Origin: Pseudomonas sp. BGr12
Lineage (GTDB): Bacteria > Pseudomonadota > Gammaproteobacteria > Pseudomonadales > Pseudomonadaceae
DNA: 64,000 bases
Direction: 5' to 3'
Assembly: GCF_030272895.1 (NCBI RefSeq)
Contig: NZ_JALRNF010000037.1
Coordinates: 5,755-69,754, forward strand
Under the pieces are notes generated by a model. That model searched no databases. It saw nothing but the letters and a program-made list of their open reading frames with translations, and was not told where the DNA came from. This document shows positions 16,353 to 40,060 of this stretch, one piece after another. The stretch's first letter is position 1. Each line of letters begins with the position of its first letter. A program made the position numbers and the translations under genes.

Positions 16353-17195
16353 TCACGGCACCTGATACTGGCTCAGGTACTTGTCCAGCACCGCCTTGTC
16401 GCCACTGCCATCGCCGGCCACCTGCCACAGGCGCCGCTCGATGCCCTGGGCCAGCAGGTGCCCCACCGCCGACTCGATGGCCGACAGCACGCACAGTTGC
16501 GCCGGTTCGTTGGTGGTGTAGCCCACCTCGGCTTCCAGCAGTTTCTTGAACTCGATGAACTTGAACACCCCGGCGCTGCGGCCGACCGAGTAGATGGTCT
16601 TGCTGGTCATGACGTTGGCCAGCACCTGGCCGCTGCGCACGTCCACCGCCCGCAGGTTGACGGTCACCTGGTCGACCCGGTACTCGCGGGAGATGTCGAT
16701 ACCCAGGTAGCGCGCGCCCTCCCCGCCGCTGCGCACGTTGGTGTCGTAGGCGATGATGCCGCCTTCGAGCATCAGGTTGGCCGCCTGCAACGGTGGCAGT
16801 TCGCCCTGGATGTTCACCGGGGTATCGGGCTTTTTCTGCGAGGCGCGGATGATCTTGCGCTCGGTCAGCAGGTTCTGCAGCCCTTCGCGCTCCAGCACCA
16901 TGAACCAGCCACTGGCCTGCAGGGCATCCATCAGCATGCTCGCCGCCCCCTGGGTCACGCTGGTGGAGAAGGAACTGGCCGGGGTCGGTTTGTATTGCCC
17001 GGTCTGGTCGCGAAAGCCGTAGACCACGGCCATCAGCCGGCCTTTTGGCCGCGGCATGTTGATCAGGTCATAGTAGGTCGAGGCCCGAGGTGTCAGGGTC
17101 GGAATATCCGCGTCCTGTTCGGCTGGCATTGGTTCACGCAGGCTGCAACCTTGCAGCGCGGCCAACATCAATACTGTGGTCAGAAGTCGTTTCAT
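16353..17195 (-). CDS. csgG: CsgG-family outer-membrane secretion lipoprotein
   Basis: The 280-residue product has a lipoprotein signal with lipobox LQGC (Cys about 16). The CsgG family blocks include RLMAVVYGFRDQTGQYKP, GASMLMDALQASGWFMVLEREGLQNLL and YRVDQVTVNLRAVDVRSGQVL. Length matches E. coli CsgG (277). CsgG forms a nonameric pore that exports curli subunits. Here it is last in a csgE-csgF-csgG set that follows type II-like secretion genes. No CsgA or CsgB subunit gene is nearby. The client is unknown; the adjacent manganese-oxidase island is a candidate. Confidence 0.9.
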   Translation of the reverse strand: MKRLLTTVLMLAALQGCSLREPMPAEQDADIPTLTPRASTYYDLINMPRPKGRLMAVVYGFRDQTGQYKPTPASSFSTSVTQGAASMLMDALQASGWFMVLEREGLQNLLTERKIIRASQKKPDTPVNIQGELPPLQAANLMLEGGIIAYDTNVRSGGEGARYLGIDISREYRVDQVTVNLRAVDVRSGQVLANVMTSKTIYSVGRSAGVFKFIEFKKLLEAEVGYTTNEPAQLCVLSAIESAVGHLLAQGIERRLWQVAGDGSGDKAVLDKYLSQYQVP

Positions 17196-17222
17196 GGCTG
17201 TCGCTCCCCAATGCCCTACCCG

Positions 17223-17642
17223 TCAAGGGTTCAGGCCGTTGACCGAAATTTCCGAAATTTCGCCGGTTGCCCGGTCGGTGACCTGAATGCTCAAGGCCCC
17301 GGAATCGTCGATGACGTTGATGATGAAGGCGTCGGTCTGCAGGCTGCCGGTGTTGCCGTTGTTGATGGTGTCCATCAGCTGCGACAGCAGGCGCGACTCA
17401 AGCTGGTTGGTGAAGCGCTCCAGGGCCGAGGTACCGGCGAAGGCCGAGGCGCGGTCCTTGATCGCCGGGTCTTCGTGGTCGTTCTGGGCCTGGGCGTTGT
17501 TGAGCAGCCAGGTGCCGTTCAGCGGGTTGCCGCCGAAGGCCGGGTTGACCGGGGTGTAGACCAGTTCGGTGGCACCGGCCTGGCTGCCCAGGGCCGCCAG
17601 CAAGACCAGGGAGGCCAGGCGGCAGGTGTTTTTGTTGTTCAT
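17223..17642 (-). CDS. csgF: CsgF-family curli assembly protein
   Basis: The 139-residue product has a signal peptide ending about residue 24 (GATELVYTPVNPAFGG). The mature N-terminus, VYTPVNPAFGGNPLNG, is the CsgF segment that plugs the CsgG pore. Length equals that of E. coli CsgF (138). In curli CsgF couples CsgG export to surface nucleation. The gene overlaps csgE by four bases (ATGA), showing translational coupling, and precedes csgG by 27 bases. Confidence 0.92.
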   Translation of the reverse strand: MNNKNTCRLASLVLLAALGSQAGATELVYTPVNPAFGGNPLNGTWLLNNAQAQNDHEDPAIKDRASAFAGTSALERFTNQLESRLLSQLMDTINNGNTGSLQTDAFIINVIDDSGALSIQVTDRATGEISEISVNGLNP

Positions 17643-18034
17643 AGCTCGTCCCTCTCAAGATCAGTGGTGTCCTGCAGCATCATCTGCAGCTTGCGCTGGA
17701 TGATCTGCGCCTTGACCAGGTCCGCCGCTTCATAGGCGGCATCCTTCAGTTCCGTGGTGTTGGGTGGCAGGAAGCGCCGGTAGACCACGCGTTGCTCAAA
17801 CTCGACCGTCACCAGGCTGCCCCAGCGTGCGTCCGGCCGTTCCCGTACCACCAGGTTGAAATCCAGGCGGCTGGTGGCACGCAGCCGCTCGGCGAAGCTG
17901 TAATAGAAGTCGTGGCCGATGTGCGAGATGGTGTTGTCGACGATAAAACCCATCATCTCGTCCTCGGCGCCGCCACGGGCGGTACCGGCCAGCAGCACCA
18001 GGGCCAGGGCGCAGGCAGTCAGGCGGCGGTTCAT
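17639..18034 (-). CDS. csgE: CsgE-family periplasmic secretion gatekeeper
   Basis: The 131-residue product starts at ATG 18034, which overlaps the previous stop codon. It has a signal peptide (about 1-22). Family blocks GFIVDNTISHIGHDFYYSFAERL and a C-terminal amphipathic helix match CsgE (129 residues in E. coli). CsgE caps CsgG and gives substrate specificity. It sits directly after a pseudopilin gene with ATGA overlap, which places the curli-type exporter in the same transcript as the type II-like machine. Confidence 0.9.
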   Translation of the reverse strand: MNRRLTACALALVLLAGTARGGAEDEMMGFIVDNTISHIGHDFYYSFAERLRATSRLDFNLVVRERPDARWGSLVTVEFEQRVVYRRFLPPNTTELKDAAYEAADLVKAQIIQRKLQMMLQDTTDLERDEL

Positions 18035-18561
18035 GGTCCGTCCCCCTGGGCAATGCCCTTGCGGGCGCCGGCGGCGGTGTCGGCGAAGGCTTTCTCGGCC
18101 ACGAACTGCCAGTCGGCGTAGTGGGCCAGGCCTTCGAAGTCGGACCACTGGGCGGCGAAGCCGGTCTGCTTGAGCGGCATCTCCTGGGAGCGGCTGTAGA
18201 CCCCGGTGATGCGCCCGTCGATCGAAAGCACCAGTCCCCACTCGTCGCTGCCGGTGATCGGGTCGGCATACAGGCGGCGCAGGTGGCGCTTGATGCCGGG
18301 GTAGCGCGGGTCCTCCAGCAGCTCGTCCAGGGTCTGCGGGTACTGGGCCAGGCCCGGCGAGTTGCGGTAGTAGCTGCGCAGCGCCTGGGCGTACTGGCCA
18401 CCGACCCACAGCAGGTCGCGTTCGCGATCACGCAGGGAGGCGGTGGACCACAGGGTCACCGTCGAGCCCATGGCGATGCCGGTCACGGCGATCAGCAACA
18501 GCACACCCAGGTAGGTGAAGCCCGCCTCGGCGGCGCTACCACTCGGCATAAAGGCTGCCAT
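18031..18561 (-). CDS. Minor pseudopilin lacking Glu5
   Basis: The 176-residue product starts at ATG 18561, with GGGAGG eight bases upstream. A prepilin leader ends SAAEAG, followed by FTYLGVLLLIAVTGIA. The G|F cleavage site and hydrophobic N-helix are clear. The fifth mature residue is Gly, not the Glu found in major pilins, as in tip pseudopilins of the GspK type. The gene overlaps the upstream pseudopilin by 26 bases and csgE by four. It is the third pseudopilin in the operon. A prepilin peptidase (PilD) elsewhere in the genome would be required. Confidence 0.75.
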   Translation of the reverse strand: MAAFMPSGSAAEAGFTYLGVLLLIAVTGIAMGSTVTLWSTASLRDRERDLLWVGGQYAQALRSYYRNSPGLAQYPQTLDELLEDPRYPGIKRHLRRLYADPITGSDEWGLVLSIDGRITGVYSRSQEMPLKQTGFAAQWSDFEGLAHYADWQFVAEKAFADTAAGARKGIAQGDGP

Positions 18562-18910
18562 CACGCGCCCTCCCGGTTGAGCCGCTCTTGATGTCGGCCA
18601 CGGAACCGGCCACCCCTTCCGGAGGTGCCACCACCTGCCAGCGATCGCGGCGCTCGGTGATCGGGTCCATGGGGGCGCTGCGCAGGTAGCGTTGCTCGAC
18701 CAGTTGCTCCAGCGATTCGGGATAACGGCCGGTGTCTCCATAATAATGGTCCAGGGCCTCGCGCATGACCGCCAGACTCTGACGCAAGGTCGCCTCGCGG
18801 GAGACTTCCAGGCTTTCGAAATAGCGCGGCATGGCGATGGTCATCAGGGTGGCGATGATCGCCATCACCACCAGCAACTCGATCAGGGTAAAGCCTTGAT
18901 TTCGTTTCAT
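18536..18910 (-). CDS. Type II secretion pseudopilin (GspG/H-like)
   Basis: The 124-residue product begins MKRNQG|FTLIELLVVMAIIATLMTIA, a canonical class III prepilin N-terminus with Glu5. It contains the GDTGRYPESLEQLV segment found in GspG-type pseudopilins. A GTG start four codons upstream is possible but ATG 18910 places the leader at normal length. It overlaps the following pseudopilin gene and lies five bases after the preceding one. It probably contributes to a short periplasmic pseudopilus. Confidence 0.82.
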   Translation of the reverse strand: MKRNQGFTLIELLVVMAIIATLMTIAMPRYFESLEVSREATLRQSLAVMREALDHYYGDTGRYPESLEQLVEQRYLRSAPMDPITERRDRWQVVAPPEGVAGSVADIKSGSTGRARDGSLYAEW

Positions 18911-18915
18911 GCTGC

Positions 18916-19389
18916 TCACCACTGCCCGTAGGCGATGCCGTTGAGGCCTTTGCCCGGCGCCTTGGAGTAGACGTCGAAGACGTCCTCGCCATCGCGCGGG
19001 TTCTGGGCCGAACTGTCGTAGCTGCGCAGGCCCCAGCCGCCTTCGTCGTCACGCTTGTGCGCCACCAGCGGGTCGCGCGGAATGCGCCGCAGGAAGTAGA
19101 ACTTGGCCCCCTTGGCACTGCGCACATCGCGCACCCCGTCCACCAGCACCTGCAGGTTCGGTGGGTAGCCGCTGGCGTTCAGCGATTTCTCGATGTAGCC
19201 GGCGTCGAAGGCACGCTTGTAGGCGTCGATGGCATCGCGAATCTGGTACAGCGCGGTCTTGAGCTCCTGCTCCTTGCCACGGCGCACCAGGGTTTCGGTC
19301 AAGGGCGCTGCGATCGAGGCCAGCAACCCGAGCAGCGCCAGGGTCAGCATCACTTCGATCAGGCTGAAACCCGCCACCCTGCGTTTCAT
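18916..19389 (-). CDS. Type II secretion pseudopilin (GspG-like)
   Basis: The 157-residue product begins MKRRVAG|FSLIEVMLTLALLGLLASIA with Glu5 present. It is longer than typical GspG, with an inserted RSAKGAKFYFLRRIPRDPL region. That region matches a pseudopilin subgroup in which the IPRDP motif precedes a WGLRSYDS calcium-site-like stretch. It starts three bases after the secretin gene stop and heads a run of three pseudopilin genes. Its role is as major or minor subunit of the pseudopilus in this system. Confidence 0.82.
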   Translation of the reverse strand: MKRRVAGFSLIEVMLTLALLGLLASIAAPLTETLVRRGKEQELKTALYQIRDAIDAYKRAFDAGYIEKSLNASGYPPNLQVLVDGVRDVRSAKGAKFYFLRRIPRDPLVAHKRDDEGGWGLRSYDSSAQNPRDGEDVFDVYSKAPGKGLNGIAYGQW

Positions 19390-19392
19390 GAT

Positions 19393-21222
19393 TCAGGGCC
19401 TCACCGCGGTCGGTACCGCTGCTACCGGTTGGCTTTCATCGCCCTCCAGGTTTGGAGTGGGGCTGATGTTGCGGATCTGCATGCTGGTTTCGGTGCCGGT
19501 CGGGAACTCCATGTCCGACGGGCTCTGGTACGGCAGGTTGCGGATGATCCGCGGGGTGATCGACAGCACCAGCTCCGACTGGCTGTTGTCGTTGCGGTTG
19601 CTGCCGAACAGCCGGCCAAGGCCCGGGATGTCGCCAAGCCCCGGAATCTTGTTGCCGCTGGCGCCCTGGTCGTTGCGCATCAGGCCGGCCAGGACCTGGG
19701 TTTCGCCGTCATGCAGGCGCAGGCTGGTCTGGGCGTTGCGGGTGTCGACCTGGACCGGGATGGTGCCCTGGCGGGTCGGTTCCAGCGGTTTGGCGTTGCT
19801 GACCTCCAGGGCCACCTTGATCGCTACTTCGTTGTTCAGGTGCACCACCGGGGTCACTTCGAGTTTCAGACCGACATCCAGGTAAGTGATGCTTTCGGTG
19901 ATCACCGGGCCCTGGGTCGAGGGCACCGAGGTGGCGCTGACGATCGGCACCCGCTGGCCGATGTGGATGCGCGCCTGCTCGCGGTTGCTGACCCGGATCA
20001 CCGGGCTTGCCAGGGTGTTGATGTCATTGTCCTGGGCGTTGATCTTGGCCTGGGGCGATGGCGAGAAGGTGATTTGCTCGGAGTTGATGCCGCGCAGCTG
20101 GTCGATGGTGCTCACCGGGTTGCCGTCGCTGTTGAGGATCCCGAAGGTGTTGGGCCATTGCAGGCCGAGTTCGAGGATCCGCGAGCGGGCCACTTCCATC
20201 ACTTCGACTTCCAGCACCACTTCCGGGTTGGACTGATCCTGGGACTGCAACAGCTTCTCGGCCATGCGCACTGCATCGGGGGTGTCACGCATGGTCAGGG
20301 TGTTGAGGCGCTCATCGACGAACACGTCGCGGGTCTTGAGCATGGTCTTGACCATGTTCATCGCGGTGTTGGAGTCGATGCTGGTCAGGTAGAAGGTGCG
20401 CATCACCAGTTCCTGGTAATCCTTGGTCTTCTGCGGCGAGTCGGGGTAGATCAGCAGGGTGTTGTCGTTCACCACCTTCTGGTGCAACTGGTTCTGCTCC
20501 AGCAGCAAGGCGATGGCGTTCTCGATGCGCACATCGCGCACGAAAATGGTGGCCTTCATGTCCGGACGCAGGTCCTTGTCGAAGATGAAGTTGAGCCCGG
20601 CCACCTGGGACAGCACCTCGAAGATGGTCTTGAGGTTGGCGTCACGGAACTCCAGGGTCACCGGCCGTTCCAGCTTGCTGCGCAGTTGCGGGTTGGGCTG
20701 GGCGGTGCGGCTCTGCACCAGTTCGATGTCCTTGCGCAGGGCCAGGCCGGCCTCGTTCTGCGGGTCCAGCTGCAGCACTTCGCGCATGTGCCGCTCGGCG
20801 CCGAACAGGTCGCCGGCACGCAGGGCCGCCTGGCCCAGGGCGACGCGTTCACCGAGGTTGCGCATTTGCTCGATCTGGCGCACGGCTTCCTGGGCGCGGC
20901 GGTTGTTCGGCTCCAGGGTCAGGACCCGGCCGTAGCCCATGCGCGCCCCGGCAAAGTCGTGGCGGCTGCGGTCGCTGTCGGCCTGGGTCAGCAGTTCTTC
21001 AATGGACTGCTTGCGTCCCTGGGCCAGGGCGATGTTCAGCTCGGTGTCGCGCGGGTTCTCCTTCAGTGCCTCTTCCAGCCGGGCAACCCCGGCCTCGTAC
21101 TGCCCTTCGTTGATCAGCGCCTGGCCGTCCTTGCGTGCGGCGGAAGTGCCGCAGCCGGCCAGGGCGACGCACAGTGCCAGCATCAGATACGGTGCTTTGT
21201 TGCAGTGCCTGGACGAAATCAT
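19393..21222 (-). CDS. Secretin lipoprotein (GspD/MshL/PilQ family)
   Basis: The 609-residue product has a lipoprotein signal with lipobox LAGC (about residue 24). TPR-like helical repeats follow (about 30-160), then short N domains (from about 185, VTLEFRDANLKTIFEVLSQ). The C-terminal secretin domain includes VPIVSATSV, the V-G-Q-R segment and TQVLAGLMRNDQGASGNKIPGLGDIPGLGRLFGS, a hallmark of secretins. It would form the outer-membrane ring for the type II/MSHA-like machine. The TPR plus lipid anchor suggests it targets itself without a separate pilotin. It is coupled by ATGA overlap to the upstream PilP-like gene. Confidence 0.9.
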   Translation of the reverse strand: MISSRHCNKAPYLMLALCVALAGCGTSAARKDGQALINEGQYEAGVARLEEALKENPRDTELNIALAQGRKQSIEELLTQADSDRSRHDFAGARMGYGRVLTLEPNNRRAQEAVRQIEQMRNLGERVALGQAALRAGDLFGAERHMREVLQLDPQNEAGLALRKDIELVQSRTAQPNPQLRSKLERPVTLEFRDANLKTIFEVLSQVAGLNFIFDKDLRPDMKATIFVRDVRIENAIALLLEQNQLHQKVVNDNTLLIYPDSPQKTKDYQELVMRTFYLTSIDSNTAMNMVKTMLKTRDVFVDERLNTLTMRDTPDAVRMAEKLLQSQDQSNPEVVLEVEVMEVARSRILELGLQWPNTFGILNSDGNPVSTIDQLRGINSEQITFSPSPQAKINAQDNDINTLASPVIRVSNREQARIHIGQRVPIVSATSVPSTQGPVITESITYLDVGLKLEVTPVVHLNNEVAIKVALEVSNAKPLEPTRQGTIPVQVDTRNAQTSLRLHDGETQVLAGLMRNDQGASGNKIPGLGDIPGLGRLFGSNRNDNSQSELVLSITPRIIRNLPYQSPSDMEFPTGTETSMQIRNISPTPNLEGDESQPVAAVPTAVRP

Positions 21223-21722
21223 GGTGCGCTCCCTACAGACAAGGTCTGGGACAGGTGCAACGGCAGGTAGACCAGGCTCAGCTCCGTGGCGGAGATGTGC
21301 TCGATCCGGTAGGTGTCATCGATCACGTCGCCACGCCGCACGACGTACAGTTTTTCGCCGCTTTGCAGGAAGATCTGCTGGTCGTCGCGGTCATCCAGAC
21401 GGCCGACGAATTGAAAGGGCAAAGCGGGCGCCGCCGGGGCCACGGCCACCGGCGCAACCGCCACAGGTTGTTCGGTGACCGTCGCCAGTTGGGCGGCCGG
21501 CTTCCAGTTCTTGCTCGGGAACAGATCCCGTGGTTGCAGCGCCGCGGTCGCTGCACCCTTGCTGGCAGCGGCGTCCGCGGCCTGCGCCGCCGTGTTCGAG
21601 ACGGTCGCTTGCGCATCGCTGCCCTCGCCATCGTCCGTGAAGAAGTAGCCCGGTACCCAGGCCAGTACGGCCGCGGATCCGAGGAAGGCCAGCCAGGCCA
21701 GGCGGCGTTGAGTGTTCATCAT
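21219..21722 (-). CDS. PilP/GspC-like inner-membrane secretion protein
   Basis: The 167-residue product has one N-terminal membrane helix (about 8-26) and an Ala/Pro-rich periplasmic linker. A small C-terminal beta domain contains LPFQFVGRLDDRDDQQIFLQSGEKLYVVRRGDVIDDTYR. That domain resembles the HR/PilP fold that contacts the secretin N0 domain. Two ATG codons are adjacent at the start (21722, 21719). It lies between PilO-like and secretin genes, with four-base overlaps on both sides. GspC and PilP are the two nearest models. Confidence 0.7.
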   Translation of the reverse strand: MMNTQRRLAWLAFLGSAAVLAWVPGYFFTDDGEGSDAQATVSNTAAQAADAAASKGAATAALQPRDLFPSKNWKPAAQLATVTEQPVAVAPVAVAPAAPALPFQFVGRLDDRDDQQIFLQSGEKLYVVRRGDVIDDTYRIEHISATELSLVYLPLHLSQTLSVGSAP

Positions 21723-22267
21723 GACCTCGACAGATAAAGGGTCATACGCAGGCGACCGGTCAGCTCGCTGTCACCGATCTTCTTGCGTTGCAGGTCGACG
21801 TCTTCAAGCACCAGCGCCGGCAGTTGGCCGAGCAAGGCGTGCACGAAGCGGCGGATCTGCGGGTAGCTGCCGCGCACCGGCAGGAGGATCTGGTAGCGCG
21901 CCAGTTGGGTCTTCGGATCGACGCCCAGGGCGTACTCGCCACGGGACAGGCTGATGCGTTCGGATTTGGCCAGGCTGTAGATCCGGTCGATGGCCACGGT
22001 AGCCTGGGGCTGGGCCGGCAGCTGCTTGTGGAAGTCTTCCAGTTCGCGCTGGGGCACCTGTGGCAGTTTCAAGGCGCCGCGCTTGAACTGCTGCAGTTGC
22101 TCGTCGGCTTGCTCGCGCTGGGCCTGCAGCGCTTGCAGTTGCTGCCACTGTGGCAACACCGCCAGGGCACCGTAGAGCAGCGCCAGCAGGACCAGGGCGC
22201 CACCGGCAAGGCCGACCACGCCAATCTGGCGTGCACGCTCGTGGAGGATCAGGCTAGGGATGTGCAT
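21719..22267 (-). CDS. PilO/GspM-like inner-membrane assembly protein
   Basis: The 182-residue product starts at ATG 22267. It has one N-terminal membrane helix (about 17-37), then a coiled coil (about 40-70). A ferredoxin-like periplasmic domain follows with LPVRGSYPQIRRFVHALLGQLPALVLEDVDLQRK, the PilO/GspM core. It pairs with the PilN-like protein encoded upstream (14-base overlap). Such heterodimers align the cytoplasmic ring with the secretin in type IV pilus, MSHA and type II systems. Confidence 0.75.
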   Translation of the reverse strand: MHIPSLILHERARQIGVVGLAGGALVLLALLYGALAVLPQWQQLQALQAQREQADEQLQQFKRGALKLPQVPQRELEDFHKQLPAQPQATVAIDRIYSLAKSERISLSRGEYALGVDPKTQLARYQILLPVRGSYPQIRRFVHALLGQLPALVLEDVDLQRKKIGDSELTGRLRMTLYLSRS

Positions 22268-22796
22268 TGCCGGTCTCCCAGGTGGCGGACAGGTTGAACT
22301 GCACCGGATGCTCGGGCTGCTTGACCATGATTTCGTGGTTGAGCAGTGACACATCGCGCAACTCGTCGCTGGCTTCCAGACGCTTGTGGAACGCCAGCAT
22401 GGCTTCCAGGTCGCGGGCTTCGGCGCTGATCCGCACCTGGCCCTTGCGGGCGTCGGGGGTCAGGGTCAGCAGCGCCACGTCGTCCTGGGGCATGGCTTCG
22501 AGCATGTTGAACAGACGCTCCCAGGGCCGCTGCAGTTGTTGCGAGACGCTGCGCATCTGCGCCAGCTTCTCGCTCTGTTCGCGGCTCTGAGCCGGGGTCA
22601 GTGCACTGCCCTGCTGCGGGCGCTTGCCCAGTTGCTGTTCGACCTGATGCAGTTGCTGCTCGAGCCCGGCCTGCCGCTGGCTGACGTTCTGCTGCAGGAC
22701 CACGGCCGCCAGCACCAGGCTGGCGCCGACGCCCAGCACCACCCAGGCCGCCAGCGCCGTGCGCCGTGGCTGGAAATCCAGTTCCAGGCGGCGCAT
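22254..22796 (-). CDS. PilN/GspL-C-like inner-membrane assembly protein
   Basis: The 180-residue product starts at ATG 22796, two bases before the PilM-like stop. It has a short cytoplasmic tail (MRRLELDFQPRR), then one membrane helix (about 15-35). A coiled coil (about 38-90) is followed by a periplasmic alpha/beta domain. The short cytoplasmic N-tail is where PilN binds PilM. The split PilM plus PilN arrangement, rather than a fused GspL, makes this system closer to MSHA/type IV pilus machines. Confidence 0.72.
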   Translation of the reverse strand: MRRLELDFQPRRTALAAWVVLGVGASLVLAAVVLQQNVSQRQAGLEQQLHQVEQQLGKRPQQGSALTPAQSREQSEKLAQMRSVSQQLQRPWERLFNMLEAMPQDDVALLTLTPDARKGQVRISAEARDLEAMLAFHKRLEASDELRDVSLLNHEIMVKQPEHPVQFNLSATWETGNAHP

Positions 22797-22797
22797 T

Positions 22798-23586
22798 TCA
22801 GGCCACCGCCCGGGACATGCTGCACAGCACGTCGCCGCCCTGGCCGTTGAGTTCGCACAGCTGCACCCCCTCGAGGGACGGTGGCTGCTCCTGGCGACCC
22901 GGTGCATGCAGGAACACCGGCAGTTGCCGTTCACCGGCGTTGAGTTCGCACTGGCGGGCAATCAGGGCCTGCAGGGCGGCGTCACTGTCGCCACCGCCCT
23001 GGGCGCTGACCTGTTGCCAGGTGCCGTTGTGGGCCAGCAGGCAAACGCTGCGTTGTGGCTCGGCAATCACGAACAGGAAGTCGCCCTGCCCCAGTTGCTC
23101 GGCAAAACGGTTGTAGGCGGCCATCAGGTACGGGCGCACCGAACGCAGGCGCAGGCCCAGGTCGCGACAGTGGTCGTTGAGCCGTTGCAGCAACGCTTCC
23201 GGCACGGCCGTGGCGATGCGCGCGCTGCCGGCGGCCTCCGGCGAGACCACCAGGCGCCAGCCGTCCAGGCTCTGGCCGTAATGGCTCTCGAAACAGGCCC
23301 GGGCGTACTGGTACAGCTCGTCCGGCCGGTTGATGGCGGCGCTCCAGGGCACCAGGCAGAAGCGGCAGTACTGCGCCGACAGCAGCACCTGCAGGTGCGC
23401 GCCTTTGCAACGCTGCTCGGCCAGCAGGCTGTGCAAGGTATCCAGGGCCTGGCTGGCGGCCTGGCTGCGTTCGGCGATAAAGCCCAGGCTGCCCAGCCAG
23501 GTTTGCTCCTGGCCCTGCAGGCGGGACAGTCCAACCCCCTGGGCACCGAGCACGGCGACGAATCGATCAGGCGACAAATGTGACAC
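22798..23586 (-). CDS. PilM/MshI-like cytoplasmic assembly protein
   Basis: The 262-residue product starts at GTG 23586, with GGAGGAG eight bases upstream. That start falls inside the preceding ATPase gene (20-base overlap). No signal or membrane helix is present. The actin-like fold of PilM/MshI is suggested by length and context. It has segments LPEALLQRLNDHCRDLGLRLRSVRPYL and DFLFVIAEPQRSVCLLAHNG, which resemble the second half of MshI. Sequence similarity is weak by eye, so the assignment depends on its place between a GspE ATPase and PilN/O/P-like genes. Confidence 0.65.
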   Translation of the reverse strand: MSHLSPDRFVAVLGAQGVGLSRLQGQEQTWLGSLGFIAERSQAASQALDTLHSLLAEQRCKGAHLQVLLSAQYCRFCLVPWSAAINRPDELYQYARACFESHYGQSLDGWRLVVSPEAAGSARIATAVPEALLQRLNDHCRDLGLRLRSVRPYLMAAYNRFAEQLGQGDFLFVIAEPQRSVCLLAHNGTWQQVSAQGGGDSDAALQALIARQCELNAGERQLPVFLHAPGRQEQPPSLEGVQLCELNGQGGDVLCSMSRAVA

Positions 23587-25270
23587 GATTGATCTCCTCC
23601 AGGGTGGTCCGGCCATCACGCACCAGTTCCAGTGCGGAGCTGCGCAGCAGGCGCAAGCCACGTTGACAGGCCAGGGCGCGGATCTGCGACAGCGGCTTGC
23701 GTTCGACGATCATCTGCCGCAGTTCGTCGTCCAGGTGCAGCAGCTCGGCGATCGCGGTACGCCCGCGATAACCGCTGCCGCGGCACTGGCCGCAGCCGCT
23801 GCCGTGTACGAAGTGGTAATGGCCGACCTGCCCGGCTTCCAGGCCCGAGAGGCTCAGTTCCTCGTCGCTGGGCTGATGGCGGCTGGCGCAGTGCGGGCAG
23901 ACCAGGCGGATCAGGCGCTGGGCCAGCACGGCATTGAGGGCGGAAACGAAGCTGTAGGGATCGACCTGCATCTGGCTGAAGCGGCCGATCACATCGAAGA
24001 CGTTGTTGGCGTGGATGGTGGTGAACACCAGGTGGCCGGTGAGCGCCGACTGCACGGCGATCTGTGCGGTGTCCGGGTCGCGGATCTCGCCGACCATGAT
24101 CTTGTCCGGGTCGTGGCGCAGGATCGAACGCAGGCCGCGGGCGAAGGTCAGGCCCTTCTTCTCGTTGACCGGAATTTGCAGCACGCCCGGCAACTGGTAC
24201 TCCACCGGGTCTTCGATGGTGATGATCTTGTCCACGCCATGGTTGATCTCGCTGATCATGGCGTAGAGGGTGGTGGTCTTGCCGCTGCCGGTGGGGCCGG
24301 TGACCAGGATCATGCCGTACGGCTCGTTGGCCAGGCGGCGCAGGCTGCGCAGGGTCTGGTCCTCGAAGCCCAGGGCCTGCAGCTGCACGCCGCTGACGCG
24401 GTCGGCCAGGTCCTGTTTGTCGAGCACCCGCAGCACGGCATCCTCACCGAAGATGCTGGGCATGATCGATACCCGGAAGTCGATCTGCCGGCCGCTGATG
24501 CCGATCTTGAAGCGGCCGTCCTGGGGCACGCGCTTTTCGCCGATGTCCAGCTCGGCCATGACCTTGATCCGCGAGATCACCTGGTCGGCGAACTCGCTGC
24601 CGCTGACTTTGCTGATGCCGTTGAGCACGCCGTCGATACGGTACTTGATCACCAGGCCGTTGCCGGTGACGCCCAGGTGGATGTCGCTGGCATGCATTTT
24701 CAGCGCATCGTAGAGGGTCGAGTTGACCAGCTTGACCACCCGGCTCTGGTCTTCGCTGATGCTGGCCAGCGACAGGCTCTGCACCGTGTCGAGCTCGCTG
24801 ACGGCGTCGCTTTCGGTGTCCAGCGAGTCCACGGCGTGGAAGCTTTCTTCGTGGCGGGCGAGATAACCGCTGAGGTCGGCGGCCGCCACCAGGTACAGCG
24901 GTGCGCCCTGCAGGCATTCGTCGATCCAGGCCAGGCGAGCGCTGTCGAAGGGGTCGGCGAACACGCCCAGGGCCTGGCCGTCATGCTCGAGGAAAATGAA
25001 TTCGCGCTTCAGGCACTGGGCCAGGCTGACCCGGTCGAACAGCGGCGCGGCGGCGAACAGCGACGGGCTGTCGAGCACCGGGTAATGCAGGGTCTGGCCA
25101 AGGGAGCTGACAAAATCGGCGGTGTTCAGGCCGCTCAGTTGTTGCAGGGTATCGAGCAGACGTTCGCCGCTTTGTTCGGCGGTTACCCTGGCCTGGGCCA
25201 GCAGCTCGCGGCCAAGGGGTGCGGGGGCACTGGACCTGGCGGGGACTACAGCGAGCGACAATGATTCCAT
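23567..25270 (-). CDS. gspE: GspE/PilB/MshE-type secretion ATPase
   Basis: The 567-residue product has an N-terminal MshEN/N1E-like domain (about 20-150). The AAA core has Walker A GPTGSGKT (325-332), the Asp box ITIEDPVEY (352), Walker B IMVGEIRD (391-398) and the His box TGHLVFTTIHAN (411). A tetracysteine zinc motif (CPHC at 458 and CGQC at 493) matches GspE and PilB. It powers pseudopilus assembly at the inner membrane. The gene lies 53 bases after the response regulator and starts the run of secretion genes. The cognate platform protein GspF is not here but at 38873-40060. Confidence 0.92.
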   Translation of the reverse strand: MESLSLAVVPARSSAPAPLGRELLAQARVTAEQSGERLLDTLQQLSGLNTADFVSSLGQTLHYPVLDSPSLFAAAPLFDRVSLAQCLKREFIFLEHDGQALGVFADPFDSARLAWIDECLQGAPLYLVAAADLSGYLARHEESFHAVDSLDTESDAVSELDTVQSLSLASISEDQSRVVKLVNSTLYDALKMHASDIHLGVTGNGLVIKYRIDGVLNGISKVSGSEFADQVISRIKVMAELDIGEKRVPQDGRFKIGISGRQIDFRVSIMPSIFGEDAVLRVLDKQDLADRVSGVQLQALGFEDQTLRSLRRLANEPYGMILVTGPTGSGKTTTLYAMISEINHGVDKIITIEDPVEYQLPGVLQIPVNEKKGLTFARGLRSILRHDPDKIMVGEIRDPDTAQIAVQSALTGHLVFTTIHANNVFDVIGRFSQMQVDPYSFVSALNAVLAQRLIRLVCPHCASRHQPSDEELSLSGLEAGQVGHYHFVHGSGCGQCRGSGYRGRTAIAELLHLDDELRQMIVERKPLSQIRALACQRGLRLLRSSALELVRDGRTTLEEINRVTFVA

Positions 25271-25323
25271 GGCTTGCTCTCCAGCTCGGAGCGCGGCAAG
25301 CCAAAACCTGGTCTGCTCGCGCG

Positions 25324-25857
25324 TTACTCCCCGGTGAGCAGTTGGTCGTCGTCCGGCCCTGGCGGCTTCACGCCATTACGGCGGCGATCAGCCAGGACCC
25401 AACTACCATCGAACAACTGCAGCGGGAAACTTTCATTCCTGCCTTGGCGTCGTTCGACGAACCCTGTGTCCTCATTGCCTTCGCGCTTCTCTTCTCGCTT
25501 GAAACCGATCAGGTCGCAGACTGCGCGGGCCAGTTCCGCCAAGGGAAAAGGCTTGAACAGGATATGACTGACACCTAGCTGGTTGGCACGCTCACGGACC
25601 TCGGCGGTCGGGTGGGCAGTGATCAACACGAAATGACAGTTCCTGCTTTGACGCACCGTCTCCAGTACCTGAAACCCTTCCATGTCGGGCAAGCGATAAT
25701 CGAGCACTATGACGTCGGGTTGGAGGCTCGCGGCCAGGCCGATGGCACTTTCCCCGTCGTAGGCAACATGAACGTTCAGGCCTTGCGCAACCAGGTAAGC
25801 CTGGATATTGCCCGCAAGGGTCTGTTCGTCATCGACTACCAATACTGTGTTAACCAA
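25324..25857 (-). CDS. Response regulator, receiver domain with unusual short tail
   Basis: The 177-residue product probably starts at TTG 25857, with AAGGAG seven bases upstream. Residues 1-120 are a complete receiver: acidic pair DD (8-9), phospho-acceptor Asp in VIVLDYRLPD (about 52), Thr in LITAHP and Lys in FKPF. The 55-residue tail is polar and matches no DNA-binding or enzymatic output domain. It is the first gene after a sigma-54 promoter and heads the operon of the type II-like/Csg machine. A CheY-like role on the secretion ATPase, or a phosphorelay role, is possible. No sensor kinase is in the window. Confidence 0.82.
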   Translation of the reverse strand: MVNTVLVVDDEQTLAGNIQAYLVAQGLNVHVAYDGESAIGLAASLQPDVIVLDYRLPDMEGFQVLETVRQSRNCHFVLITAHPTAEVRERANQLGVSHILFKPFPLAELARAVCDLIGFKREEKREGNEDTGFVERRQGRNESFPLQLFDGSWVLADRRRNGVKPPGPDDDQLLTGE

Positions 25858-29558: not shown

Positions 29559-31534
29559 CGTACACTCCTTGAACCCGATTCAGACGCTTGTTGAGCCGCA
29601 GCGGGCAGTACCCGCAGGCTGGTGTAATTGTTCTCGGCAAAGCCACTGCCCAGCGATGGGGCCTGCACATGCAGGTACCAGGCGCCGCTTTCAGCCATCT
29701 CCAGCGGCGCCTCGTAGATCCCGTCACCCACTTCCCGCACGGCACTGCTGCGCGCACGCGAGGTCGGCGCGAGGAAGTAGCGCACGCTCAGGTCCTTGAC
29801 GCCGTTGCGCGGCGCACCGTTGCCTTCGACGATGCGAAAGCGCGCGGTAAAGGGCCGGCCCTGCACCACTACCTGGGAATCGAGCATGAACTCGACCCGC
29901 GGCGTCTGCCGGTGCGGCGCGGTGGGCGAAGCGGCCACGTCGGTGCTGAAGCAGTGAATGATCTGCGGCTGGTTGAGCAGGAAGGCCACATCGAAGGTGC
30001 CGGAGGCCGGCAGCTTGACCGTCGAGCTATACACCCCCGGCGCCACTTCGCGCAGGCTGCGGTCGACCACCAGGGCGGCGCGGGCGTTGGCGCCGCGGTT
30101 GGCATAGCCGGACATCGGCGCATTCATGCCTTCGGCGTAGAAGTAGGTGGTGTTGTCCACCGGGTTGACCACGAACACCGAGTTCTCGTCGCGGGCCACG
30201 GTCAGGCCCTGGGCCAGCGGCAGGTTGCCGGCCTGGCGCGGCGCCGCAGGCCCGGCTTCGAAGCCCTGGACGATGGGTTCGCGGCCCTCCCCCAGGCTGC
30301 TCAGGTTGACCATGGTGACCTTGGGCGAGGCCAGCCCGCGAATATAGGCATAGGCGCTGGTGAAGGTCAGCTGGTAGGGTTCGGCGGACACCGGCAGGCT
30401 GTGGATCAGCCGGTCGGTACTGGCGTCGACCACCAGCGCCTTGTTTTCCAGGGTGTTGAGGGCGATGCCGAAGCGCCCGTCCTTGCTGAAGCGCATCGGC
30501 CCCAGGCCCTGCTCGCCCTGAATCAGGTGGCGCTGGGTGTGGTTGCGGGCATCGATCACGCTGATGGTGCCGTCGCGCCCGTCGGTCACATACACCGCCT
30601 GGGACAGCGCCGAATAGGCCACCGACAGCGGGTGCGAGCCGACTTTCAGGGTGTTGACCAGACGCATCTCGCTGGCATCGATCACGCTCAGGGTGCCGCT
30701 GTCGCGGTTGCTGACAAACACATAGCGCGAGTCGGCACTGAAGGCGATCTCGTGATGTCCGGCACCGGTGGCGAAGAACTTCATGGCCTTGCGGCTGGGC
30801 ACATCGATCACCGTCACGCCACTCTCGGCCGGATCGCTGGCATTGTTGCCGACCCACAGCAGGCGCTGGTCGGGCTGCATCGCCAGGCGCAGCGGCTGTT
30901 TGCCGGCGCTGAGGTTGGCCACGCGCTGGAAGGTCTCGGTGTCGACCAACGCCACTTCACCGCGCTCGGGCATCGACACGAATACCTGCTTGTCGTCGCC
31001 GGCGGCCACCCAGTCCATGGGTTGGCCCGGCAGCTCGATACGCGCCAGGGTACTGGTGACGCCGCCCACCGACACCGACGGATCGATCACGGTCAGGCTG
31101 GCGTCCTTGTTCATCACCAGCAGGAAGTAGCCGTTGAGGTCGAGCAAGGGGCGCGCGCCGATGCTGCTCTTGAGAAACATCGCCACCCGCGCTTTGCAGC
31201 TCTTGTCGCGGTCCTTGGCCGCGTCACCGGTGAGGGCCGGGTCCAGCCAGGCGCCGGGGGTCACCCCCGACAGTGGCTGGCCGCTGTTCTGGTCAGTGAT
31301 CTTGAAACGCACATTGGCAAACGCACCCTCGGTCAACACCCCGCCACTGGCCATCGGCTTGGCCTCGAACTCGACGGTGACACCGTCGCGGCTCAGCCGG
31401 TGCAGGGCTTGCGAATCGCTCTCGACCAGCGCTTCGCGCGGGTCGCACCACAGGCTTTCGTAAGCGATCCCCAGGCCCATCAACGTCAGGCCGGTCATCA
31501 GTCCCAGGTACAACGGTCTGTTCTTCGTGATCAT
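29555..31534 (-). CDS. YncE/cytochrome-cd1-like beta-propeller protein of the mnxG operon
   Basis: The 659-residue product has an N-terminal membrane or signal segment (about 7-25). An Ig-like domain follows (about 45-130). A seven-bladed propeller of YVTN/YncE type (about 130-470) has repeated motifs such as VFVSNRDSGTLSVIDASEM and VYVTDGRDGTISVIDARNH. A second beta-sandwich region ends the protein (about 480-640). No heme-binding CxxCH is present, so it is not a true cytochrome cd1. It starts 21 bases after mnxG, with AGAGG upstream. It may scaffold or bind MnxG, or bind metal; the sequence does not decide. Confidence 0.8.
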   Translation of the reverse strand: MITKNRPLYLGLMTGLTLMGLGIAYESLWCDPREALVESDSQALHRLSRDGVTVEFEAKPMASGGVLTEGAFANVRFKITDQNSGQPLSGVTPGAWLDPALTGDAAKDRDKSCKARVAMFLKSSIGARPLLDLNGYFLLVMNKDASLTVIDPSVSVGGVTSTLARIELPGQPMDWVAAGDDKQVFVSMPERGEVALVDTETFQRVANLSAGKQPLRLAMQPDQRLLWVGNNASDPAESGVTVIDVPSRKAMKFFATGAGHHEIAFSADSRYVFVSNRDSGTLSVIDASEMRLVNTLKVGSHPLSVAYSALSQAVYVTDGRDGTISVIDARNHTQRHLIQGEQGLGPMRFSKDGRFGIALNTLENKALVVDASTDRLIHSLPVSAEPYQLTFTSAYAYIRGLASPKVTMVNLSSLGEGREPIVQGFEAGPAAPRQAGNLPLAQGLTVARDENSVFVVNPVDNTTYFYAEGMNAPMSGYANRGANARAALVVDRSLREVAPGVYSSTVKLPASGTFDVAFLLNQPQIIHCFSTDVAASPTAPHRQTPRVEFMLDSQVVVQGRPFTARFRIVEGNGAPRNGVKDLSVRYFLAPTSRARSSAVREVGDGIYEAPLEMAESGAWYLHVQAPSLGSGFAENNYTSLRVLPAAAQQASESGSRSVR

Positions 31535-37465: not shown

Positions 37466-37481
37466 GCAAGTGCCGTGCCAG
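37466..37481 (-). promoter_or_regulatory. Sigma-54 promoter of mnxG
   Basis: TGGCACGGCACTTGCT on the minus strand matches the -24/-12 consensus TGGCACG-N4-TTGC(A/T) at every defined base. It lies 43 bases before the mnxG start. Mn oxidation in P. putida GB-1 is known to depend on the sigma-54 activator MnxR, which fits. Confidence 0.85.
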
Positions 37482-37533: not shown

Positions 37534-37569
37534 GGGGGGCATTCCCCGCAATTCCCCAGCATTTGGGGG
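37534..37569. promoter_or_regulatory. G/C-run inverted repeats upstream of the mnxG promoter, candidate enhancer sites
   Basis: GGGGGGCATTCCCC (37534-37547) and CCCCAGCATTTGGGGG (37554-37569) lie 53-88 bases upstream of the -24 element. They resemble the CCCC-N6-GGGG pair before the response-regulator promoter. They would be natural binding sites for a sigma-54 activator. Confidence 0.55.
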
Positions 37570-37642: not shown

Positions 37643-37647
37643 AAGAA

Positions 37648-38256
37648 TTACAACGGCGCATCCATCGCCAGCCCCTGCAAGCGCCGGTACTGGCGCAACA
37701 CCTTGGGCACATAACGCTGGGTCTCGGCATAGGGCGGAACGATCCGCCCACGACGCATCACCGCATCGGGGCCGGCGTTATAGGCCGCCACGGCGAGAGT
37801 GATGTCGTTGTCGAACAGGGTCAGCATGCGTTTGAGGTAGCGCGCCCCGCCCTGCACGTTGGCGCGCGGGTCCAGGACATTCTTGACCCCCATCTCCCGG
37901 GCGGTGCCCGGCATCAGCTGCATCAGCCCGACGGCGCCGCTGGGTGAGCGGGCATTGGGGTTGTAGCGCGACTCGGCGTGGATCACCGCATGCAGCAGCG
38001 CTGGCGGCAGGTCGTTGGCCTTGGCTGCTGCCGCCACCAGTTCGGCGTACGGCAGGCCGGTGATCAACTGTGCCTCGCCAGTGCCGGCCAGGCTTGCGCC
38101 CGCTTGTTCAGTAATGACCCGCTCATAGTGGCGCCCGGGTCGGTGGACGTTGGTCAGCACGTAGCTGCCATCGGCCTTGATCGAGATGTAGAAATCCGCG
38201 TGGACCGGTTGGGTCCAGGCCAGCCAGAAGAAAATTCCCGCAGTGAGCCAGCGCAT
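37648..38256 (-). CDS. Periplasmic lytic transglycosylase (SLT domain)
   Basis: The 202-residue product starts at ATG 38256, with GGAGGG seven bases upstream, and has a signal peptide (about 1-20). A short N-domain precedes the SLT domain (about 75-185). Its catalytic Glu is in HAVIHAESRYNPNARSPSGA, followed by GLMQLMPGTAREMGV and AVAAYNAGPDAV. Such enzymes open peptidoglycan so that envelope-spanning machines can be inserted. It is divergent from gspG-gspF and lies directly upstream of the mnxG control region, which suggests it serves this secretion system. A good -24/-12 element lies upstream at 38331-38345. Confidence 0.88.
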   Translation of the reverse strand: MRWLTAGIFFWLAWTQPVHADFYISIKADGSYVLTNVHRPGRHYERVITEQAGASLAGTGEAQLITGLPYAELVAAAAKANDLPPALLHAVIHAESRYNPNARSPSGAVGLMQLMPGTAREMGVKNVLDPRANVQGGARYLKRMLTLFDNDITLAVAAYNAGPDAVMRRGRIVPPYAETQRYVPKVLRQYRRLQGLAMDAPL

Positions 38257-38330: not shown

Positions 38331-38345
38331 GCAAGCACTGTGCCG
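38331..38345 (-). promoter_or_regulatory. Sigma-54 promoter for the lytic transglycosylase gene
   Basis: CGGCACAGTGCTTGC on the minus strand keeps GG and GC ten bases apart. It differs from TGGCACG-N4-TTGC at two positions. It lies 75 bases before the gene start. Confidence 0.6.
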
Positions 38346-38434
38346 CCTTGCCATGCCCGTGGCGCAAAGGCTCGGGGCAGACGCGCACAACAATTGCATA
38401 AGGCCTTGCAGGCGCACGAAGGAGGGCCTTTGGC

Positions 38435-38857
38435 ATGAACGACAAGAAACGCGCACAACAGGGATTCACCCTGCTCGAACTGCTGGTGGTGCTGGTGGTG
38501 CTGGGTCTGCTCGCGGGGATCGTCGCACCCAAGTACTTCAGCCAGTTGGGGCGCTCGGAGGCCAAGGTGGCCCGGGCGCAAATCGAAGGCCTGGGCAAGG
38601 CCCTTGACCTGTACCGGCTGGAGGTGGGGCATTACCCCAGTTCCGAGCAAGGCTTGCAGGCACTGGTCATCGCCCCCAGCGACGAGACCCGCTGGTCGGG
38701 GCCCTACCTGCAGAAAAAGGTGCCCCAGGATCCGTGGGGACGTAACTACATCTATCGCCAGCCTGGCGAAAACGGCGAGTACGACCTGCTCTCCATGGGC
38801 AAGGACGGCCAGCCCGGCGGCGAAGGCGAGAACGCCGAGGTCACCAGTTGGCAGTAA
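38435..38857 (+). CDS. gspG: Type II secretion major pseudopilin GspG
   Basis: The 140-residue product begins MNDKKRAQQG|FTLLELLVVLVVLGLLAGIVAPKY, a classic GspG leader and N-helix with Glu5. The C-terminal part has VGHYPSSEQGLQAL, VPQDPWGRNYIYRQPGENGEYDLLSMGKDGQPGGEGENAE, the GspG calcium-binding region. AAGGAGG precedes ATG 38435. It is 15 bases upstream of gspF. This is the clearest major pseudopilin in the window, about 13 kb from the rest of the secretion genes. Confidence 0.93.
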   Translation: MNDKKRAQQGFTLLELLVVLVVLGLLAGIVAPKYFSQLGRSEAKVARAQIEGLGKALDLYRLEVGHYPSSEQGLQALVIAPSDETRWSGPYLQKKVPQDPWGRNYIYRQPGENGEYDLLSMGKDGQPGGEGENAEVTSWQ

Positions 38858-38872
38858 GCGGAGGAATGGCAC

Positions 38873-40060
38873 ATGCGCTTCGAGCTCAAGGCACTGGGGA
38901 AAACCGGGGTGGTCCTGCTGACGCTGGACGCCCAGGACGCCGGGCAGGCCCGGCAGCAAGCCGAGCAGCAAGGCTTGCGGGTGGTCAGCGTGCGCAACTG
39001 CGAACGCTTCGCCCGCTTGCGTTGGCGCCGTGGCGAAACCTTCGACCTGGTGCTGTTCAGCCAGGAGTTGACCACCCTGCTCAACGCCGGCCTGCCGCTG
39101 ATCGACGCCCTGGAAAGCCTGGCCGAAAAGGAGTCGGCGGCGCAGGCACGCAAGACCCTGGGTGAACTGGTACGGCTGCTGTATGAAGGCAAGTCCTTCT
39201 CCCAGTCGCTGGCCCAGTTGCCCAGTGTGTTCCCGCCGCTGTACGTCGCCCTGGTGCAATCGAGCGAGAAGACCGGCGCCCTGGGCGATGCCCTGGGGCG
39301 CTATGTCAGCTACCGCCAGCGCATGGACGAAGTACGGCAGAAAATCATCAGTGCCTCGATCTACCCGTTCCTGCTGCTGTTGGTGGGCGGTGGCGTGGTG
39401 CTGTTCCTGCTGGGCTATGTGGTGCCGCGCTTCAGCCTGGTGTTCGAAGGGCTGGGCACCGAGTTGCCGTGGTTGTCGCGGCTGTTGATGCAGGCCGGGA
39501 TGTTCCTGCATGCCCATCAGGCGCCCCTGGCCATGGGCGTTGCCGGCACCCTGGCCGGGCTGTTCCTACTGCGCCGCGATCCGCGGGTGCGGCGCTGGCT
39601 GAACCGCCAGCTCGAACGCCTGCCGGCCTTGCACCGGCGCCTGGTGATGTACGAACTGGCACGCTTCTATCGCTCCCTGGGGATCCTCCTGCAAGGCGGT
39701 ATTCCCATCCTGACCGCCATGGGCATGGCCCGTGGCCTGCTGGGGGCTGCGGCCAGCCAGCGCCTGGAGCTGGCCTGCGAGCGGGTGCGTGAAGGCCTGT
39801 CGCTGTCGGCGGCCCTGGAAGCCGGGCACCTGGTGACCCCGGTGTCGCTGCGCCTGCTGCGCGCTGGCGAGCAGTCGGGCAACCTGGGGCAGATGATGGA
39901 GCGCAGCGCCGACTTCTACGACGAAGAGATCAGCCGCTGGATCGAATGGTTCGTGCGCCTGTTCGAACCCCTGTTGATGACCTTCATCGGCCTGTTGATC
40001 GGCTTTATCGTGATCCTGATGTACATGCCGATCTTCGAGCTGGCGTCGAGCATCCACTAG
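38873..40060 (+). CDS. gspF: Type II secretion inner-membrane platform protein GspF
   Basis: The 395-residue product has two tandem T2SSF domains (about 65-190 and 265-390). Three membrane helices lie near 165-185, 215-235 and 365-390. Family blocks include LFSQELTTLLNAGLPLIDALESLAE and ARFYRSLGILLQGGIPILTAMGMA. GspF connects the GspE ATPase to the growing pseudopilus. No other GspF/PilC/MshG gene occurs with the left block at 16.3-25.9 kb, so this copy probably completes that machine. It follows gspG with GGAGG upstream. Confidence 0.93.
   Translation: MRFELKALGKTGVVLLTLDAQDAGQARQQAEQQGLRVVSVRNCERFARLRWRRGETFDLVLFSQELTTLLNAGLPLIDALESLAEKESAAQARKTLGELVRLLYEGKSFSQSLAQLPSVFPPLYVALVQSSEKTGALGDALGRYVSYRQRMDEVRQKIISASIYPFLLLLVGGGVVLFLLGYVVPRFSLVFEGLGTELPWLSRLLMQAGMFLHAHQAPLAMGVAGTLAGLFLLRRDPRVRRWLNRQLERLPALHRRLVMYELARFYRSLGILLQGGIPILTAMGMARGLLGAAASQRLELACERVREGLSLSAALEAGHLVTPVSLRLLRAGEQSGNLGQMMERSADFYDEEISRWIEWFVRLFEPLLMTFIGLLIGFIVILMYMPIFELASSIH

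Follow-up and report, generated by a model that had tools for sequence, protein, structure and literature searches.

Locus organization

The 64,000-nucleotide stretch of Pseudomonas sp. BGr12 analyzed here (hereafter the window; contig NZ_JALRNF010000037.1, positions 5,755 to 69,754, from a source genome of 5.63 Mb in 280 contigs) carries, on both sides of the operon for the giant multicopper manganese oxidase MnxG, the genes of a secretion machine of the type II secretion system (T2SS) kind, which by its gene set we take to be the Xcm pathway reported from P. putida GB-1. It is likely that the region amounts to one T2SS-type export machine together with the oxidase operon that it serves, and MnxG itself would be the cargo. 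Downward from 25857, the minus strand holds genes for a response regulator, an ATPase, PilM/N/O/P-like proteins, a secretin and three pilin-like proteins, followed by csgE, csgF and csgG; upstream of this machine operon, also on the minus strand, lie the mnx operon and a transglycosylase gene (slt), with gspG and gspF on the opposite strand (Table 1). Domain matches bear out a preliminary description of this DNA in placing the mnxG operon between two machine blocks, with gspG and gspF beside the lytic transglycosylase at its far side. They trim the left block (16353-25857), which had been assigned whole to the machine: its GspE-type ATPase, PilN, PilO, secretin and three pilin-like proteins stand and its coordinates are right, but the PilM- and PilP-like proteins are recognized by position only, 16353-18034 represents csgG, csgF and csgE, and 25324-25857 the response regulator.

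The start of mnxG is likely the ATG at 37423 rather than the GTG at 37642: this ATG is codon 74 of the GTG reading frame and is preceded by the Shine-Dalgarno sequence GGAGGTG, and the protein beginning there opens with a Sec-type signal, MIPIKGSVLSSLLLTAALGWQVDSEAA. Both its match to the MnxG structure (PDB 9bxa) and its mnx operon neighbors identify it as a predicted manganese oxidase, in an arrangement like that described for the mnx operon in two reports (PMC11409713, PMC8218464).

Table 1. Machine, oxidase and regulatory features of the window; domain calls come from Pfam and NCBIfam profile searches of the window proteins, with the cut-offs of those profiles
Feature	Coordinates	Strand	Basis
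csgG, curli secretion channel lipoprotein	16353..17195	-	PF03783, 272 bits, above cut-off
csgF	17223..17642	-	PF10614, 113 bits, above cut-off
csgE	17639..18034	-	PF10627, 126 bits, above cut-off
XcmX-type minor pseudopilin, lacking Glu5 (a GspK-like feature)	18031..18561	-	family alignment
Minor pseudopilin with Glu5 (GFTLIELLVV), presumably xcmT3-like	18536..18910	-	third-frame translation; frame missed by automatic choice of open reading frames
Minor pseudopilin, presumably xcmT2-like	18916..19389	-	PF07963; partial GspG match
TPR-secretin with lipobox, outer-membrane channel	19393..21222	-	PF00263, 141 bits; STN, one Secretin_N, TPR; N-terminus inspected
PilP/GspC-like inner-membrane protein	21219..21722	-	operon position and relatives; no Pfam match
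PilO/GspM-like protein	21719..22267	-	PF04350, 28.6 bits; T2SSM_b, 22.8 bits
PilN-like protein	22254..22796	-	PF05137, 23.0 bits (cut-off 22.8)
PilM/GspL-cytoplasmic-like protein	22798..23586	-	position; no Pfam match above cut-off; kept in relatives
GspE/PilB-type assembly ATPase	23567..25270	-	PF00437, 414 bits; Xcm clade in tree
Response-regulator receiver protein, first gene of machine operon	25324..25857	-	PF00072
Sigma-54 promoter of machine operon, TGGCACGAAGCATGC	25927..25941	-	motif scan; conserved in relatives
Dyad CCCC-N6-GGGG, about -89, putative enhancer	26017..26030	-	conserved in promoter-anchored loci
Dyad CCCCA-N4-TGGGG, about -132, putative enhancer	26060..26073	-	motif scan
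SurA-like periplasmic chaperone	26088..26732	-	PF13624
Cytochrome c/periplasmic-binding fusion	26729..28264	-	PF13458, PF00034
SCO1/SenC copper chaperone 2	28270..28914	-	PF02630
SCO1/SenC copper chaperone 1	28911..29558	-	PF02630
Beta-propeller protein	29555..31534	-	PF02239/PF21783
MnxG, predicted giant multicopper manganese oxidase, Sec-type signal, 1955 aa	31556..37423	-	PDB MnxG 9bxa, 240 bits
Sigma-54 promoter of mnxG, exact consensus TGGCACGGCACTTGC	37466..37480	-	motif scan
Dyad CCCCA-N5-TGGGG, upstream of mnxG promoter	37554..37568	-	motif scan
Lytic transglycosylase (SLT), travels with gspG-gspF	37648..38256	-	PF01464; adjacency in relatives
Sigma-54-like site upstream of slt, CGGCACAGTGCTTGC	38331..38345	-	motif scan
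GspG major pseudopilin, presumably xcmT1-like	38435..38857	+	TIGR01710, 195 bits (cut-off 88.85)
GspF platform protein, presumably xcmS-like	38873..40060	+	PF00482, 191 bits; TIGR02120, 292 bits, below cut-off 424

Two blocks of one machine

Neither block is complete by itself, and the proposal that together they form one machine holds up against relatives from outside the family. A class-wide search of 369 genomes for the secretin (threshold E of 1e-45 or better) returned ten genomes outside the family besides our own, and 13 loci were read: those of the ten genomes, two of which contain a second locus, and that of G159, a member of the family. Genes for gspE, gspF, secretin and pilins stand together in 12 of the 13, in varying order (the second locus of G214 holds the secretin alone), with gspG, gspF and gspE adjacent in nine. 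A transglycosylase gene adjoins gspG in G214, in a Burkholderia ambifaria plasmid and in a Paraburkholderia record, and slt-gspG-gspF remains an intact unit in Pseudomonas even away from mnxG (L054, L061, L066). In maximum-likelihood trees, for which the program flagged long branches, the window's GspE falls among Xcm-like clusters, as does its GspF, and the canonical T2SS proteins of G497 and G351 stand separately. Because the genes form a single cluster in relatives, the slt-gspG-gspF unit is kept and the trees agree, we consider the two halves to belong together. The mnx operon lies in the break between gspF and gspE, and insertion and rearrangement are both possible origins of this arrangement.

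Nor does a second gspF/gspG set elsewhere appear to serve the left block, consistent with the shared grouping of GspE and GspF in the trees: a profile search of the whole genome for the platform domain PF00482 recovered the window gene, one gene on contig C208 that is PilC-like by its neighborhood, and two on C139 that are presumably Tad-like, and no second GspF of the window kind. A prepilin peptidase (A24) is encoded outside the window, next to the PilC-like gene on C208.

Co-occurrence of the machine and MnxG

In the family (198 genomes, with the secretin counted at 64% identity or more), the machine is accompanied by mnxG almost without exception: 28 genomes contain the secretin, of which 27 contain MnxG and 27 GspF (the contig of G146, the genome without GspF, ends at mnxG). 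Set aside before counting were G159, with a divergent cluster (secretin 39%, GspF 42% and nearly full length) and no mnxG, as well as G149 and G015, and the remaining genomes of the other 170 score none; without these three, Fisher's test gives a p of about 2e-32, which is not corrected for kinship. The distribution is sporadic, with the machine present in five of 25 genomes in the genus and the secretin, MnxG and GspF all absent from G017, a genome of the same species. The starts of the secretin gene and mnxG lie at most 20 kb apart in 24 of 27 genomes, the exceptions being G004 (23 kb), G050 (3.9 Mb, or 1.9 Mb if the contig is circular) and G047 (separate contigs); similarly, of the 26 genomes with both mnxG and gspF, 22 have them no more than 20 kb apart, and the distance is 55 kb in G055 and 91 kb in G065. 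A search with XcmX, from which the best 80 of 249 relatives were kept as loci (all but one titled Pseudomonas), gave a comparable picture: among those with at least 8 kb of upstream sequence, the response regulator was present in 78/78 and the cytochrome-fusion gene of the mnx operon in 76/78; of the two without it, L155 has no sequence beyond 8 kb and L172 shows matches to sco1 and the propeller gene. Cumulatively, these distributions suggest that machine and oxidase have been inherited together.

In G149, one of the genomes set aside, gspG and slt are accompanied by a shortened gspF (L057:9141-11056), apparently a decayed remnant; neither the secretin nor mnxG was found in this genome.

A shared promoter signature

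An exact sigma-54 consensus precedes mnxG, 42 bases upstream of its ATG, and a sigma-54 site with at most two mismatches is present in 15 of 16 distinct mnxG upstream regions. These sites agree with the sigma-54 promoter predicted for mnxG in GB-1 (PMC11930936) and with the non-oxidizing phenotype of an rpoN mutant of a related strain (PMC11409713). All 85 assessable loci carry such a site upstream of the machine operon, as against 5.4% of shuffles; in the 80 listed loci it precedes the regulator gene by 61-80 bases and, except in G076, reads TGGCAYGAAGNNTGC. Upstream regions taken as controls scored near or below shuffles (gspE 2/86, secretin 5/87, xcmX 0/87, csgG 1/82, cytochrome fusion 3/32), and surA scored above them (13/81; shuffles 7.3%). 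The slt gene has a sigma-54-like site in 16 of 20 distinct upstream regions, all four misses belonging to genus g17, where a site precedes gspG instead. With one mismatch allowed, the motif alone is not rare (eight in the window, against an expectation of 7.95).

Upstream of the machine promoter, the dyad CCCC-N6-GGGG recurs in 80/80 promoter-anchored loci (shuffles 1%), and seven of eight machine loci viewed individually have two dyads, mostly near -89 and -132. On its own, the N6 dyad turns up at five places in the window, whereas a joint pattern of dyad, 55-85 bases and sigma-54 site has exactly two matches in the 5.63-Mb genome, at the promoters of the machine and of mnxG. Across the 198 genomes, the joint pattern yields 33 rows in 26 genomes, of which 24, in 17 of the 28 genomes with the Xcm machine, fall at these promoters (as assigned by distance to secretin and mnxG matches; two rows of G153 overlap) and nine elsewhere, one in an Xcm genome and eight among the 170 others; the reversed pattern, used as a control, has no match in these genomes. 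Machine and oxidase are thus probably switched on together. The response regulator heads the machine operon in the 85 loci assessed and was not found in G050 (L059).

MnxG as the likely cargo

Support for the pairing of machine and oxidase comes from their co-occurrence, from its persistence when the genes are unlinked and from the shared dyad and sigma-54 signature. Several observations weigh against it. One family genome, G076, keeps the machine without MnxG, and the converse is seen in G015, which lacks the machine and encodes a divergent MnxG operon (two segments, at 34% and 27%). Beyond the family, no mnxG was seen beside the machine in the ten genomes, within up to about 20 kb per side, and the divergent MnxG of one of them, G519, lies 0.7 Mb from its machine; G225, G496 and G519 encode more divergent MnxG with no T2SS gene seen beside it (in G496, on a 6.6-kb contig). 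The T2SS equivalog cut-offs are missed by GspE (494/630 bits), GspF (292/424) and GspD (158/351), and three outgroup clusters (G435b, G218 and G473) fall on the canonical side of the GspF tree. The dyad is less conserved at mnxG than at the machine: among 13 mnxG upstream regions with 200 bases of sequence, the loose form occurs in 8 (shuffles 4%) and the exact N6 form in 4 (4.4% of shuffles), its spacing varies, and the slt dyad was found in 0/13. Eleven of the 28 Xcm genomes have no joint-pattern row at these promoters, and on-target matches arise partly by design, because the pattern was built on the window and its relatives; its near absence elsewhere, however, is not explained by that design. 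In addition, a transposon screen with 13 mapped mutants hit, in the section consulted, no gene named as a component of this machine (PMC11409713).

Machines without mnxG are rare within the family (1/28), as the idea of a dedicated MnxG exporter leads one to expect, but outside it the machine occurs without mnxG beside it, so that this type of machine is older and wider than MnxG. Within that limit the idea of dedication is supported: co-occurrence and the shared promoter signature point to a machine that is dedicated in Pseudomonas, and not everywhere.

We envisage that MnxG would reach the periplasm through its Sec signal and be folded and loaded with copper there, aided by the two SCO proteins and the SurA-like chaperone. 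The folded enzyme could then be pushed through the TPR-secretin by a short GspG pseudopilus with a minor-pseudopilin tip that includes XcmX, the drive coming from the GspE ATPase acting on the GspF platform, while the SLT enzyme would open the peptidoglycan locally. The pilin leaders would be cut by a PilD-type peptidase encoded elsewhere in the genome, and a sigma-54 activator, for which MnxR is the obvious candidate, may switch on oxidase and exporter together.

MnxG is also associated with export systems of another kind. It occurs in six further genomes of the class-wide set, and in three of these, G230, G497 and G351 (MnxG 52-58% in the best segment), which represent three other gammaproteobacterial families, a canonical T2SS cluster is found next to the mnx operon (L218; L219-L220; L221-L222). 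These clusters have Pfam matches to GspK and T2SSM_b in all three and to GspH in G497, and GspD of G497 and G351 has an N0 and three Secretin_N domains; the Xcm secretin was not found in any of the three at the 1e-45 cut-off. The three linkages may share one origin.

Alternatively, the machine could export another mnx product, such as the beta-propeller protein or the cytochrome c fusion, or a nucleator, with MnxG taking another route or staying periplasmic. The N-termini of mnx proteins do resemble, by eye, export signals or anchors, and it is the whole mnx operon, not mnxG alone, that accompanies the machine. MnxG is nevertheless the element also shared with the canonical T2SS of other families, although that linkage does not separate MnxG from other mnx cargo, because other mnx genes accompany it there as well. 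We regard this alternative as unlikely, and favor MnxG as the cargo.

csgEFG as a probable curli module

The three csg genes close the machine operon in the window, csgE lies within 5 kb of the secretin gene in 20 of the 28 machine genomes, and the csm genes were reportedly grouped with xcmX in the 2003 account of the Xcm pathway, all of which would suit a hybrid exporter whose csgEFG channel is part of the manganese-oxidase route alongside the Gsp-like genes. However, CsgE tracks curlin rather than MnxG: 22 of the 28 machine genomes contain CsgE and the same 22 contain curlin repeats, while both are absent from the remaining six, five of which keep MnxG. Throughout the 198 genomes, curlin accompanies CsgE in 71/71, with two more genomes having curlin alone. 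Of the 80 named loci, L172, with 10 kb of downstream sequence, and L174, with only 1.6 kb, lack all three csg genes, and L180 lacks csgF and csgG; CsgG, moreover, passes unfolded chains and would be unsuited to a copper-loaded giant. A hybrid exporter is thus quite improbable, and csgEFG as a component of the MnxG exporter was rejected on the curlin co-occurrence.

Since CsgE follows curlin and not MnxG, csgEFG is best read as a curli exporter that shares the machine operon and stands outside the MnxG route. All three proteins have the CsgE, CsgF and CsgG domains and the genome encodes curlin, as in curli type VIII secretion, although the single CsgE of the genome is in the window and the best curlin-repeat match listed is on another contig (C130). 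Scores for CsgG (299/505 bits) and CsgF (100/171) fall short of the NCBIfam equivalog cut-offs. This assignment differs from the reported grouping of csm genes with the pathway in 2003.

Type of machine

Like a canonical T2SS, the window machine has GspE, GspF, GspG, a secretin, minor pseudopilins and a GspK-like pilin without Glu5, but it differs in its TPR-secretin with a single Secretin_N domain and in its PilM/N/O-like alignment proteins. Its GspG passes the equivalog cut-off for the T2SS major pseudopilin, and the best solved-structure relatives of this protein are T2SS GspG. XcmX is read as a GspK-like tip because Glu is absent from position 5 in 12/12 aligned family proteins. Among the locus proteins, Pfam found no match to T2SSC, T2SSK or T2SSL and a weak one to T2SSM_b (22.8 bits; cut-off 21.7).

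The PilM/N/O-type alignment proteins, together with an ATPase that resembles PilB and GspE about equally, could also indicate that the machine builds a short surface pilus or a mineral scaffold instead of secreting MnxG. We give this little credence: GspG scores 195 against a cut-off of 88.85 bits with T2SS GspG as its best solved relatives, and the locus proteins scanned include a single assembly-type ATPase and none of PilT type. The equivalog cut-offs of type IVa pili (PilB 476/676 bits, PilQ 154/284 bits) and of the MSHA pilus secretin MshL (104.7 bits; cut-off 250.2) were not reached. A published parallel is OmpB of Geobacter sulfurreducens, a surface multicopper oxidase of a different, MofA-like type that is linked to an atypical T2SS (PMC5566968); it is likened here by description only.

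Neighbors of the outgroup clusters

The relatives of the machine outside the family stand beside varied large proteins. On the megaplasmid of Cupriavidus metallidurans CH34 (L111:19528-31269), two multicopper oxidases and a 2698-aa protein of cadherin/Ig type follow xcmX; in the 26 loci compared, this set is whole in G409 (L110), represented by the large protein in G435 (L099) and by a fragment in the Paraburkholderia record (L232), and no such oxidase was found at G368, G519, G203 or the Aliiroseovarius plasmid. The CH34 set is possibly an undescribed metal oxidase system. G214 encodes a 1074-aa multihaem cytochrome (L096:13304-16528) with 14 C7 stretches and an MtrC-like domain, less than 10 kb from an Xcm-like cluster that has an slt of its own, and other outgroup clusters adjoin RHS, FG-GAP or filamentous-haemagglutinin proteins. 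These neighbor associations were looked for after the fact, without a random-locus control, and serve as a lead only.

Such varied neighbors might suggest that the co-location with mnxG is an accident of genome architecture and that the machine has general substrates, which is scarcely credible given a near-perfect co-occurrence that holds despite sporadic distribution and outlasts the loss of linkage, and given a promoter pattern that this genome shows solely at the two operons.

Tentatively, and with somewhat more doubt than confidence, we propose that Xcm-type machines constitute a secretion branch of their own, serving folded surface proteins of very large size that are often metal-redox enzymes, and that giant multicopper oxidases have been paired several times independently with type II-type exporters: MnxG with Xcm in Pseudomonas, MnxG with the canonical T2SS in other gammaproteobacteria and, in Cupriavidus and its kin, the multicopper oxidase pair plus 2698-aa protein with an Xcm-like cluster. 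The Pseudomonas pairing would be sealed by the shared CCCC/GGGG enhancer and sigma-54 promoter under one activator.

Relation to the Xcm pathway

The paper by de Vrind et al. in 2003 (Mol Microbiol 47:993) reportedly described the Xcm pathway of P. putida GB-1/KT2440 as required for export of the Mn-oxidizing factor, with an xcmT1/xcmS pair lying apart from a cluster of xcmX, two xcpT-like genes and csmE/F/G, and this naming is said to predate the recognition of mnxG as the oxidase gene. The window has the gene set reported for that pathway: in Pseudomonas, a gspG-gspF pair plus a cluster holding xcmX, csgEFG and two more pilins. The association with manganese oxidation has reportedly been published for GB-1 as the Xcm pathway, so that the machine, though little studied, is not new. 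Set beside that account, the two parts are here seen to flank mnxG, the secretin, ATPase and PilMNOP core is named, the csg genes go to curli, and shared promoters are described. Four later papers (PMC3056050, PMC3798386, PMC4509608, PMC4672498) cite the 2003 title with its "novel Gsp-related pathway", and one of them (PMC4509608) used the Xcm cluster as bait and mentions an Xcm locus in P. capeferrum WCS358, the genome in which we found a block orthologous to that of the window (L137). The literature consulted, consisting mostly of open-access and partial texts, yielded no mention of a linkage between mnxG and the machine genes, of mnxG in the break, of the shared enhancer and sigma-54 signature, of csgEFG assigned to curli or of mnxG beside a canonical T2SS.

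The locus thus represents a known machine type with new connections, namely the position of mnxG in the break, the shared promoters, the reassignment of csg and the occurrence of mnxG beside a canonical T2SS. The route of the manganese oxidase to the cell surface has been a question since the pathway was named in 2003; the present comparison identifies every part of the machine, makes a case against counting the csg genes among them and offers a candidate regulatory site common to oxidase and exporter. Should giant copper oxidases prove to recur next to exporters of the type II kind, searches beside such clusters could bring further metal oxidases to light.

Other features

Tandem full-length copies of mnxG occur in a few genomes: three on contig C22 of G004 (L063, L064), one of the G004 copies having no sigma-54 site within 300 bases, and two listed each on C28 of G014 and C1 of G141. 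The mnxG-like operon of G015 (L058:8641-19346) includes propeller, SCO and cytochrome-fusion genes, with no export machine in 20 kb. In the window, gspF is directly followed by two TENA/PqqC-family genes and a tyrosine recombinase (40112-41485 and 41611-42525), and the recombinase (85%) is also found beside slt-gspG-gspF in G190 (L066). About 5 kb beyond gspF, positions 45186-47285 encode an MHYT-GGDEF-EAL cyclic-di-GMP protein.

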